Under the pieces are notes generated by a model. It was not told where the DNA came from and searched no databases. It worked only from the letters and a program-made list of their open reading frames with translations. A program made the translations under genes and the position numbers. This document shows, in pieces, positions 349 to 2,773 of a DNA stretch of 45,238 nt (within the stretch, counting starts at the first letter, position 1; every line of letters begins with the position of its first letter). The DNA is from Acidimicrobiia bacterium (lineage in GTDB: Bacteria > Actinomycetota > Acidimicrobiia > Acidimicrobiales > Bin134). Where the stretch lies: positions 1 through 45,238 of the forward strand of contig JAJDTA010000038.1 in assembly GCA_022827405.1 (NCBI GenBank). Direction: 5' to 3'.

Positions 349-879
349 TCAAGCGGTGAGGCGGGCGACGGCTTCGTCGATGATGGTGGTAGCCAGCTTT
401 TGGAGGGATTCGTCGTCGAGGGTGGAGACGGGGTGGGGCACGGTGACCGCGGGGTAGGTGGCCATGCCCACGGTGGGGGCGAAGGATTCGACCACCGGCT
501 CAAACGGCTCGGTGATCAGAAGCATCGAGGGGATTCCTCGGGACTCCATATGAACGGCGTCGTGCAGACTGCACGCGGTGCAGGCCCCTCAATCGCCCAG
601 GCCGGAGATGATGAGGTGGGCGCGGGCGGCCAGCATCTCGGCGTCGTCGGCGTCGATGGGCTTGCCCGCCGCCGACTTGGAATGGACCACGATGTCGGCC
701 ACCGGGAGGCGGTCGCACAGGCCCTCGGCCACATAGGTGAGCAGTTCCTTGGCGTTGTTCTTGGCGTTGTCGATCACCCCAATCACCACCGGCTCGCTGG
801 GGGTGCGCCGGGGGGCCATCGCCACCTCATCGATTTGGGCTTCCTCGTACACCGGAGACAAAACAGTTACCGACGACAT
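349..879 (-). CDS. UGSC-family selenoprotein, Sec at in-frame TGA 589-591
   Basis: This reads as one 176-residue protein if the TGA at 589-591 is translated as selenocysteine (residue 97). The segment before it ends in LIISGLGD. The segment after it, in the same frame, begins GACTACSLHDAVHMESRGIP, giving Sec-Gly-Ala-Cys, a U-x-x-C redox motif. This is the layout of the UGSC family of (seleno)proteins, named for Sec-Gly-Ser-Cys, and the downstream part continues with the expected VTVPHP segment to a true TGA at 349. The ATG at 879 follows a strong Shine-Dalgarno (GAAGGAGGTCGC), 10 bp after the upstream gene's stop. The biochemical role of the family is not known to me; a redox or reductase function is inference. 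A nonsense mutation is the alternative, but conservation-like sequence on both sides and the position exactly at the family's Sec argue against it. No Sec machinery genes are in the window. Confidence 0.82.
569..583 (-). promoter_or_regulatory. Candidate bacterial SECIS-like hairpin after the Sec codon
   Basis: Five bases after the in-frame TGA the transcript can form CTGCAC-CGC-GTGCAG, a perfect 6-bp stem with a 3-base loop. An alternative overlapping stem (GTGCA-GTC-TGCAC) follows. Bacterial SelB recognises a stem-loop located just downstream of the Sec UGA inside the coding region, so position fits; the short spacer and loop sequence are not a textbook match. Support is by position and base pairing only. 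Confidence 0.45.
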
Positions 880-889
880 GCGACCTCCT

Positions 890-1951
890 TCACGCCAAGG
901 GTAGTCCATCACCGGGAGCAGCCACCTTCCGGGTGACGGCCACCGAGTGCACAACCGGAGCCCAGTTGGGGATGTAGGCCGACCAGCCGGCCCCCGCGCT
1001 GCCCGCGGTGACCAGGAAGATGTCGTCGGGCCCCCGCACCGTGTTGAGCTTGCCGTCAGGGTCGGGGGTCATGTCGTTTTGCGCGGTGAATTCCTGCAAG
1101 ACGCCGCCCGCGTTCAAGTGCTCGGGAGTCACCCGGCTGTGCTCGGCCAAGAACTCTCGCACCATCTGCTTGGTCCATCCGGCTTCGGCCAGGATCTGGC
1201 GGTGCTCGTGGCCGATCACCAGCAGCACCTGATGCTTTTTTGCCACGGCGTAGGTGGCCGGGTTGGTCATGGCGGCGGCAAAGGTCAACAGGATCCCCTC
1301 GGGGTCGCCGTTGAGGTGGTTGGCCACCTGGTGGGGACCCTCGGAGGGGAACATGGTCACCGTGGTGTCAGCCTCGCCAAAGCCCAGCTCCACCCGCAGT
1401 GGCGGCCAACCCTCGGGCGGGGGCTCCTCGGCCACCAGCATGGTGTATTTACCGGGATGGCCCAGCGACGATCCGTCGAGGGTGTCCGACCGAGCGCCCA
1501 GCACGTTCATGGCCACCAACCGCAGAGCCCGGCCCACGGTGGCGTTGGCCCGGTAGCCCGGCCCGAGCGCATTGCGGGCCGTGTTGAACCCCAGCTCTGC
1601 CACCAGCGGGCCGCTCACCACCGCGCACAGCGCGGCCCCGCCGGTGCTGGTCACCACGGTGTGGCACCCGAATCGGGGGTCGAACATGGCCGACAAGCCG
1701 GCCAGCACCACCGGGAAGTACTCGGGTCGGCAGCCAGCCATCACCGCATTGACGGCCGCCTTCTCCGCGGTTACCTCCCTAGACCGCTCCGGCACGCGGC
1801 CCACGATGTCGCCCGGGACCAACCCGGCGTAGTCGAGCATCGCCTCAACCCGCTCCGGCGTGGGGGGCACCACCGGCAGCCCGTCGGTCCAACCCCGGTC
1901 GAAGAACTCCTCTTGCACGTCCCCCGTGTCGAGTACCAACTCCTGAGCCAT
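890..1951 (-). CDS. Conserved GWTDGLPVVPPT-type protein, partner of the UGSC selenoprotein
   Basis: A 353-residue soluble protein beginning FFDRGWTDGLPVVPPTPERV after about 15 residues, a block I recognise from uncharacterised proteins that sit beside or are fused to UGSC-type domains. It has no signal peptide or membrane segment. Cysteines occur at GCRPEYF, RFGCHTV and ALCAVV in the first third. It lies directly upstream of the selenoprotein on the same strand with a 10-bp gap, so both are probably co-translated and act together. The start at 1951 is an ATG 27 bp from the divergent SDR start, implying a shared promoter region. No enzymatic function can be assigned from sequence. Some databases label such proteins thioredoxin, but I see no thioredoxin CxxC fold motif. 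Confidence 0.72.
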   Translation of the reverse strand: MAQELVLDTGDVQEEFFDRGWTDGLPVVPPTPERVEAMLDYAGLVPGDIVGRVPERSREVTAEKAAVNAVMAGCRPEYFPVVLAGLSAMFDPRFGCHTVVTSTGGAALCAVVSGPLVAELGFNTARNALGPGYRANATVGRALRLVAMNVLGARSDTLDGSSLGHPGKYTMLVAEEPPPEGWPPLRVELGFGEADTTVTMFPSEGPHQVANHLNGDPEGILLTFAAAMTNPATYAVAKKHQVLLVIGHEHRQILAEAGWTKQMVREFLAEHSRVTPEHLNAGGVLQEFTAQNDMTPDPDGKLNTVRGPDDIFLVTAGSAGAGWSAYIPNWAPVVHSVAVTRKVAAPGDGLPLA

Positions 1952-1978: not shown

Positions 1979-2773
1979 GTGACAGGAAGACTGGCAGGCA
2001 AGAGGACCATCGTGACCGGGGCGGGCTCGGGGATCGGCAAGGCCGCGGCCCAGCTGTTCGCCGCCGAGGGGGCCCAGGTGATGTGCGCCGACATCAACGG
2101 CGACGCCGCGGCCGCCACTGCGGGCGAGATCGGTAATCAGGCCATCAGCATGCCGGTGGACGTGACCCAGCCCGACGACTGCCAAGCCATGACCAGCCAA
2201 GCCGTGGCCACCTTCGGCGGCCTTGACGCGGTCTACTCCAACGCCGGGGTTGACGGGCCGGGCCGAGCCGGCGATCTCAGCTTGGAGGAGTGGAACCGGG
2301 TGATCGGGGTGAACCTCACCGGGAAGTGGCTGTCGGTCAAATACGCCATCCCCCATCTCGTCGAGGCCGGCGGAGGCTCGCTGGTGCTCCAGGCCAGCGT
2401 CGGCGGGGTGATCGGCGTGCCGGGCATCGCCGCCTATTCCGCGGCCAAGGCCGGGGTGATCGGCCTCACCCGGCAGATGGCGGTGGACTACGGCCCTGAC
2501 AAGATCCGGGTCAACGCCATCTGCCCGGGGACAGTGCCCACCCCCCTGGTGCGGGCTACCTACGAGAAGCGGGGCGGATTCTCGGCCACCGCGGCAGTAG
2601 CCGCCGACGCCACCGTGGATGAGATGATTGAGGCCGCCGTGGTGCGCCACCCCATCGGCCGTCTCGGCACCACCGCCGACATCGCCCAACTGGCCCTGCA
2701 CCTGGCCTCCGACGAGTCGTCTTGGACTACTGGCACCGCCATTGTCATCGACGGCGGCATGTCGGTGGCTTGA
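1979..2773 (+). CDS. Short-chain dehydrogenase/reductase (SDR), NAD-type
   Basis: Classical SDR of 264 residues catalysing NAD(P)-dependent oxidation of an alcohol or reduction of a ketone; the substrate is unknown. The cofactor motif TGAGSGIG lies at residues 13-20, NAG at 88-90, and the catalytic triad is Ser140, Tyr153 and Lys157 (YSAAK). Asp38 at the end of the second strand favours NAD over NADP. The C-terminal GTAIVIDGGMSV is typical. I chose the GTG at 1979 because family similarity begins there; the frame is open far upstream but that part is antisense to the neighbouring gene. It is divergent from the UGSC unit and convergent with the SnoaL-like gene, 13 bp apart. Confidence 0.93.
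   Translation: MTGRLAGKRTIVTGAGSGIGKAAAQLFAAEGAQVMCADINGDAAAATAGEIGNQAISMPVDVTQPDDCQAMTSQAVATFGGLDAVYSNAGVDGPGRAGDLSLEEWNRVIGVNLTGKWLSVKYAIPHLVEAGGGSLVLQASVGGVIGVPGIAAYSAAKAGVIGLTRQMAVDYGPDKIRVNAICPGTVPTPLVRATYEKRGGFSATAAVAADATVDEMIEAAVVRHPIGRLGTTADIAQLALHLASDESSWTTGTAIVIDGGMSVA

Follow-up and report, generated by a model that had tools for sequence, protein, structure and literature searches.

Is the TGA triplet that splits a 176-codon reading frame in an Acidimicrobiia bacterium a stop codon or a selenocysteine (Sec) codon, and in what kind of reaction might the encoded protein take part? The frame lies at positions 349 to 879 of contig JAJDTA010000038.1 (GenBank assembly GCA_022827405.1), and the window, i.e., the whole stretch of DNA that was analyzed, comprises 45,238 nucleotides (nt) of this contig. 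Analysis of the frame and its relatives pointed to a selenoprotein of the widespread UGSC family, encoded directly downstream of a larger gene that is referred to here as the partner gene. The best explanation as a whole combines a UGSC selenoprotein, Sec insertion directed by a hairpin, and a two-component reductase role of the pair; we consider this explanation probable. The features of the selenoprotein gene are the following:

349 to 879, minus strand: coding sequence of the predicted UGSC-family selenoprotein, 176 amino acids (aa), UGAC variant, including the terminal TGA at 351 to 349
589 to 591, minus strand: in-frame TGA read as Sec, codon 97
883 to 890, minus strand: putative Shine-Dalgarno sequence, AAGGAGGT, upstream of the ATG at 879, as read from the sequence

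Translation of the minus strand from the ATG at 879 gave MSSVTVL...GLGD-TGA-GACTACSLHDAV...ARLTA-TGA, corresponding to 176 codons with a single in-frame TGA at 591-589 and a terminal TGA at 351-349. An earlier note on this DNA had described two same-frame halves around a TGA where the UGSC motif has its Sec. Its coordinates were exact, and the strand, which it did not give, is the minus strand; the plus strand of 349-879 carries an unrelated frame. The Shine-Dalgarno-like element at 890-883 touches the stop codon of the partner gene, and the gap between this stop and the ATG of the selenoprotein gene is 10 nt.

The joined 176-codon product, for which the earlier note had proposed an alignment to the UGSC family, matched PF24696 (UGSC) over its full length when TGA was read as Sec (155.5 bits, E value 2e-45, cut-off 25, profile positions 2 to 171 of 172). 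The alignment corresponds to residues 13 to 182 of the translated stretch 900-340. The second profile model, NF041046, gave 123.6 bits (E value 6.5e-36), 1.4 bits short of its cut-off of 125, and therefore no equivalog status is claimed. UGSC-containing selenoproteins have been described in the Global Ocean Sampling (GOS) study (PMC2398784, excerpt). The family is thus already known from this study and the two profile models, and the gene is a further member of it. The full-length PF24696 match, the Sec position, and the UxxC motif are shared with the family. The gene differs from it in having U-G-A-C in place of the literal U-G-S-C tetrapeptide and in scoring just under the NF041046 cut-off; in addition, the partner gene does not appear in the excerpts of family descriptions that were examined. 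The motif continues as U-G-A-C-x-x-C, i.e., as a UxxCxxC pattern.

The position of the TGA was compared among relatives. The genome contains six UGSC genes, each with exactly one internal stop, which is always TGA. In a first set of 36 UGSC loci, 35 have a lone TGA in this place of the motif, and the 36th has cysteine (Cys); such agreement is not due to chance. When 159 family genes were placed on one profile, 152 had TGA and 7 had Cys at the Sec/Cys position; this sample is biased, as it comprises this gene and eight congeneric orthologues plus loci picked by similarity. The tetrapeptides of the 159 genes are UGSC (129), UGAC (17), CGSC (5), UGGC (4), CGAC (2), UAAC (1), and UGSS (1). The tree implies three exchanges between Sec and Cys. 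Among the alignments made, A2 is without L081, which had been placed in a wrong frame in A1.

Selection around the TGA was assessed from the 36 pairs formed by this gene and eight congeneric orthologues. Before the TGA, 831 synonymous and 324 nonsynonymous codon differences were counted, and after it 578 and 134, respectively. The synonymous excess after the TGA indicates that the part behind the stop is constrained as protein-coding sequence, with the C-terminal half under no weaker constraint than the N-terminal half. The earlier impression of conserved sequence on both sides thus corresponds to purifying selection before and after the TGA. In a pseudogene, the TGA would have arisen as a simple nonsense mutation, and the part behind it would be decaying. 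The halves are indeed separate under the standard code, and the tRNA for Sec (tRNA-Sec), considered below, was not found in the assembly. Against a pseudogene stand the placement of the TGA, which is shared by all nine congeneric orthologues and by nearly all family genes, the constraint on the C-terminal half, and the presence of a single stop, always TGA, in all six paralogues of the genome. We regard a pseudogene as very improbable. A reassignment of TGA in the organism, e.g., to Trp, is extremely improbable, and nothing was found in its favor. TGA terminates the partner gene, the neighboring short-chain dehydrogenase gene, and the UGSC gene itself, and family members without TGA carry Cys, not Trp, at the homologous residue.

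The earlier note had named a genome without Sec machinery and homologues with stops at scattered positions as signs of a pseudogene. The TGA was found at one fixed position, and selA, selB, and selD are present in the genome; two contigs carry selA, and two carry selB. The remaining gene of the set to which the note had pointed, selC (tRNA-Sec), was not recovered. In the assembly, 150 of 803 candidates were scored and none exceeded the cut-off, and ARAGORN reported no tRNA on the selA, selB, and selD contigs. The best tRNA-Sec-like matches that were submitted to ARAGORN (three of seven) were Leu and Ser tRNAs. A stretch near the end of contig C226 was also rejected as a selC site; it matches the flank of a congener tRNA-Sec, the sequence beyond it differs, and ARAGORN finds no tRNA there. 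In all five single-contig relatives tested, two of which are congeners, a tRNA-Sec exceeded the Rfam cut-off, and ARAGORN identified a tRNA-SeC with the anticodon tca in each of them. The assembly is fragmented (237 contigs, 3.77 Mb, 95.67% complete, 5.34% contaminated), and we infer that the missing tRNA-Sec represents an assembly gap.

Two side observations concern these genes. The two selA-selB copies (C226:1-5238 and C163:2-5221) share 87% identity over 5.2 kb of DNA in a bin with the contamination given above, and they probably derive from two related strains or species in one bin. The selD gene (C40:5922-6866, L011) contains one in-frame TGA, and SelD itself looks like a selenoprotein.

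Bacterial Sec insertion calls for a stem-loop downstream of the UGA with a G in the apical loop. A candidate for such a Sec insertion sequence (SECIS) element was located by a family-wide pairing analysis, from whose offsets the coordinates in the window were derived:

561 to 575, minus strand: SECIS-like hairpin CGUGCA-GUC-UGCACG, six of six pairs, apical loop at 569 to 567

The element thus has six pairs and the loop GUC, and the apical loop starts at the 20th base after the TGA. In the minimum-energy folds of most of 107 Sec genes, an apical loop starts at the same base. In these 107 genes, the 45 bases after the TGA were more stable than synonymously recoded versions (mean z, -1.03), compared with z values of -0.40 and -0.15 for two control windows in the same test. 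Over 104 distinct sequences, 0.965 of the core pair cells of the six-pair stem were paired, compared with 0.115 to 0.635 for six slid versions of the stem and a mean of 0.846 (maximum, 0.869) in 500 permutations of the 3' halves. Several pairs were changed on both sides. The 48 bases needed for the hairpin count were available in 150 of the 152 Sec genes and in all seven Cys genes. All six pairs are present in 132 of the 150 Sec genes, including this gene, five pairs in 13, and three pairs in 5, while none of the seven Cys homologues has all six pairs and one has five. The loop starts with GU in 143 of the 150 Sec genes and in one of the seven Cys homologues.

Besides the missing tRNA-Sec, two results for this gene speak against hairpin-directed Sec insertion. 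Its own downstream stretch is not more stable than synonymously recoded versions (z, +0.23), and the fold of lowest energy is another hairpin, which overlaps the SECIS-like one and would compete with it. The read-through proposed in the earlier note nevertheless agrees with the Sec machinery, the fixed TGA position, the Cys homologues, the SECIS-like hairpin, and the purifying selection on both sides, and on these sequence-based grounds the TGA at 591-589 is almost certainly read as Sec.

The UGAC variant had been noted as unusual. No more than 17 of the 159 genes have it, nine of which are this gene and its congeneric orthologues, and to this extent the description stands; at the same time, UGAC predominates in one well-supported clade. 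Ala occupies the third motif position in 20 of the 159 genes, 18 of which form a clade of exactly 18 members with a support of 98 in a tree calculated with the four motif columns masked. Two UGAC genes (L093 and one match of L121) lie outside it. Because the clade contains UGAC, UAAC, and two CGAC genes, UGAC marks a subfamily in which Sec and Cys are exchanged and does not represent a defect. Two further TGA-containing variants were observed, U-A-A-C in L083, which belongs to this clade, and U-G-S-S in L131, which is without the resolving Cys.

The gene directly upstream of the selenoprotein gene was then considered as a possible clue to function:

890 to 1951, minus strand: partner gene, 353 aa, without a Pfam or NCBIfam match, linked to UGSC genes by co-occurrence and fusions

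Neither Pfam nor NCBIfam gave a match for the partner product of the window. Pfam searches with nine diverse partner relatives yielded nothing over the cut-off and three weak matches (E values of 0.029 to 0.17), and those with two partners from named plasmids yielded no match. Comparison of the partner with PDB sequences gave no meaningful match; locus L042, which is partly N, was kept in A3 (the PDB sequence search) and left out of A4. In an alignment of 24 partner sequences, D23, G24, L25, P26, and C74, among others, are invariant.

In the first locus set, most members of which reach just 1.5 kb on each side, the partner gene accompanies 33 of the 36 UGSC loci and is separated from the UGSC match by no more than about 100 nt in 28. 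All six UGSC genes of the genome have a partner gene at most 73 nt away. A search that started from the partner found at least 584 of its relatives among species genomes. Of the 80 loci kept, 74 contain a UGSC gene; in four of the six others, the partner lies within about 250 bases of a contig end. UGSC matches were detected in 150 of 298 Acidimicrobiales genomes, and two genomes of the same genus have none. Both genes are present in 146 of the 298, the UGSC gene alone in 4, the partner alone in 4, and neither in 144, with kinship between the genomes uncorrected.

Fused genes were found on plasmids. A search with the betaproteobacterial partner of L116 (not the partner of the window) as the query gave 24 named plasmid records with partner matches, which are annotated as hypothetical protein or not at all. 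Of the matched regions, 14 were chosen and opened, and fusion was tested in just the three with a partner open reading frame (ORF) of more than 500 aa. All three encode UGSC-partner fusions, namely, in Variovorax boronicumulans, Sporomusa termitida, and Vibrio europaeus, and the Variovorax boronicumulans fusion has an intact CGSC. An excerpt of the GOS paper (PMC2398784) describes UGSC fused to an unnamed conserved domain, Unknown_1. This fusion resembles the UGSC-partner fusions found here, and Unknown_1 may be this partner. The tight operon, the co-occurrence, and the fusions indicate that the UGSC gene is kept together with the upstream gene of about 350 residues.

As a lead to the reaction, the UGSC protein was compared with the Sec-containing subunits of known reductases. 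Passages of PMC13188914 describe glycine reductase as catalyzing a reductive deamination, with release of ammonia by GrdB and participation of thioredoxin, ascribe a UxxCxxC motif to GrdB, and present proline reductase as an enzyme of reductive ring cleavage whose PrdB contains Sec. In hhalign comparisons, the C-terminal half of UGSC aligned with the Sec-bearing C terminus of GrdB with a probability of 75.2 and a score of 41.0, compared with 22.2 for the best of 100 column shuffles. The probability was 69.6 with four motif columns masked and 57.7 with seven masked. The comparison with four PrdB-like Sec proteins, a name that we use for proteins with a PF07355 match and a UxxC motif, gave 84.3 and a score of 41.4 (best of 100 shuffles, 21.2). 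Sec was aligned on Sec in both comparisons, and the following helix and a GIP/GVP segment are also shared. GrdB and the PrdB-like set are themselves clearly related (99.5). A further likeness to GrdB is the position behind a larger companion gene, as GrdB follows an ORF of about 430 residues in the loci examined. The similarity to GrdB and the PrdB-like proteins extends over the C-terminal 75 to 85 or so residues alone, and UGSC is far shorter. These sequence comparisons are suggestive, not conclusive, of a distant relationship between the C-terminal half of UGSC and the Sec domain of GrdB/PrdB.

Based on this analogy, a mechanism can be sketched. SelB with Sec-tRNA would use the hairpin to insert Sec, which would complete the redox motif U-G-A-C-x-x-C. 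UGSC and its partner would form a two-component reductase in which the partner would hold the substrate and UGSC would work like the Sec subunits of glycine and proline reductase. The selenolate might attack an activated bond of the partner-held substrate, a Sec-Cys bond would form with the neighboring Cys, and thioredoxin or another thiol would reduce it again. The six paralogous pairs of the genome could serve different substrates. We put the chance that the pair is a reductase of the glycine/proline reductase kind, with the mechanism as proposed, at a little short of even. It is also conceivable, if somewhat doubtful, that UGSC and its partner represent a class of their own among selenol reductases, with two subunits and reduction by thioredoxin. 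This class would be distantly related to glycine/proline reductase and act on many substrates in bacterial catabolism, and the UGAC clade would be one of its substrate-specific branches.

Several findings count against a reductase of this kind. The GrdB proteins compared read U-G-T-G-T, without the UxxC found in UGSC. The Pfam search with the UGSC protein at an E value of 0.001 did not list PF07355, and an earlier, smaller UGSC profile gave a probability of just 52.8 with GrdB, and one of 20 shuffles scored 20.6. The partner showed no relation to the GrdE-like companion (hhalign probability, 0.3; 12 loci, with L162 left out and at least one ORF, that of L172, apparently in the wrong frame) and no signal with GrdB or the PrdB-like proteins. 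The UxxCxxC pattern is present in 19 of 35 Sec loci, this gene included, and is absent from the other five paralogues of the genome. Genes for thioredoxin reductase (TrxB) or thioredoxin (TrxA) were found in just 2 of the 80 partner loci and in neither the window nor the loci searched in the same genome.

If, alternatively, UGSC were a general redox protein of the thioredoxin type, the partner would be merely its substrate or chaperone. An excerpt of the GOS paper (PMC2398784) suggests a thioredoxin-like fold, and the UxxC motif would suit it. The UGSC structural model (predicted local distance difference test score [pLDDT], 95.5) speaks against such a fold; its strands and helices alternate in parallel-type repeats, and Sec is predicted just before the helix after the third strand. 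A Foldseek search with this model gave a flavodoxin-like protein first, a template modeling (TM) score of at most 0.58, and no thioredoxin among the 50 matches listed, which also indicates that there is no close solved relative among these matches. The profile similarity to GrdB/PrdB, the families compared in this way, likewise disfavors a thioredoxin-type protein, which we judge unlikely. A search of UGSC against PDB sequences gave the ATPase ARSA1 as the best match (E value of 0.001 with the single sequence and 0.24 with the profile), which was treated as a chance match.

The pair might also be a non-redox enzyme of the hydratase, lyase, or isomerase type, with Sec or Cys in a structural or metal-binding role. 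In the Sporomusa termitida (L226:5317-7041) and Vibrio europaeus (L232:5371-7056) fusions, the Sec/Cys motif is replaced by MGTS, and both genes lie near aconitase X and DUF126 genes. Judging by these two fusions, the module can also occur in a form that lacks the redox residues; no other finding weighs as heavily against a purely redox function. A Foldseek search with the partner model (pLDDT, 85.6) gave class I fumarate hydratase and Toblerone-fold hydrolases as the best matches, but with TM scores of at most 0.28 among the 50 matches listed, none of which is a good match to a solved fold. On the other side, Sec or Cys is kept in all 159 genes compared, Sec being present in 152, the UxxCxxC reported for GrdB in PMC13188914 (excerpt) occurs in this gene too, and TrxB genes lie near some pairs. 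A non-redox enzyme therefore appears rather improbable, and the two-component reductase remains our preferred reading of the pair.

The genes around the pair were compared with respect to a common pathway. In the window, the pair is flanked by the following gene:

1979 to 2773, plus strand: short-chain dehydrogenase gene, divergent neighbor of the pair (PF13561, 4.9e-64)

The window also contains a branched-chain-type ABC transporter. At the 80 partner loci, 412 neighboring ORFs (up to three per side) fell into 333 clusters, the largest of which, the short-chain dehydrogenases, was represented at 9 of the 80 loci; no single pathway therefore emerged. The neighbors were varied and largely catabolic, including short-chain dehydrogenases, a TctC receptor, an amidohydrolase, a luciferase-like monooxygenase, TauD, and a CoA-transferase III. 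Such neighbors would suit a module that is reused for different substrates, but they point to none in particular. Of 13 annotated plasmid regions, 3 contain a thioredoxin reductase gene close to the pair, and the order in the Arthrobacter region is trxB-trxA-partner-UGSC.

Some further loci are recorded here. The UGSC protein of this Arthrobacter cluster (L222:7021-7836) has a C-terminal extension that matches the NifU-like PF01106 with 27.2 bits (cut-off, 27). On the haloarchaeal plasmids L223, L225, L229, and L235, the UGSC gene adjoins the partner gene, and the two that were translated (L223 and L225) are Cys forms. In Paracoccus ferrooxidans (L228), selB and genes for cysteine desulfurase, TusA, and DsrE are found no more than about 4 kb from a partner gene. 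In GrdB-like genes of the same phylum (L162 to L174), a stop occupies the Sec position of GTGT (U-G-T-G, not UxxC) in all 13 cases read, and most of these genes are preceded by an ORF of about 430 residues. In the same genome as the window, C155:4950-5372 has a C-terminal PF07355 (GRDB) match of 31.1 bits. In other genomes, similar stand-alone PF07355 matches (L178 to L181) extend past an in-frame stop, behind which a PrdB-like domain with U-x-x-C follows.

In the excerpts of the UGSC literature examined (PMC2398784 and PMC13188914), no function, partner gene, or relation to GrdB/PrdB is named, and the word UGSC is absent from the Sargasso Sea paper (PMC1088965). Literature searches on selenoproteins gave nothing that looked related for the Acidimicrobiia and no paper for soil metagenomes. 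The interest of this locus lies in the partner and the mechanism rather than in the family membership of the gene. The gene shows how such proteins are missed, as the TGA splits the frame and the read-through product stays just under the NF041046 cut-off. The near-obligatory partner, the fusions, and the likely link to GrdB/PrdB turn an orphan family into a testable hypothesis of a two-component enzyme.
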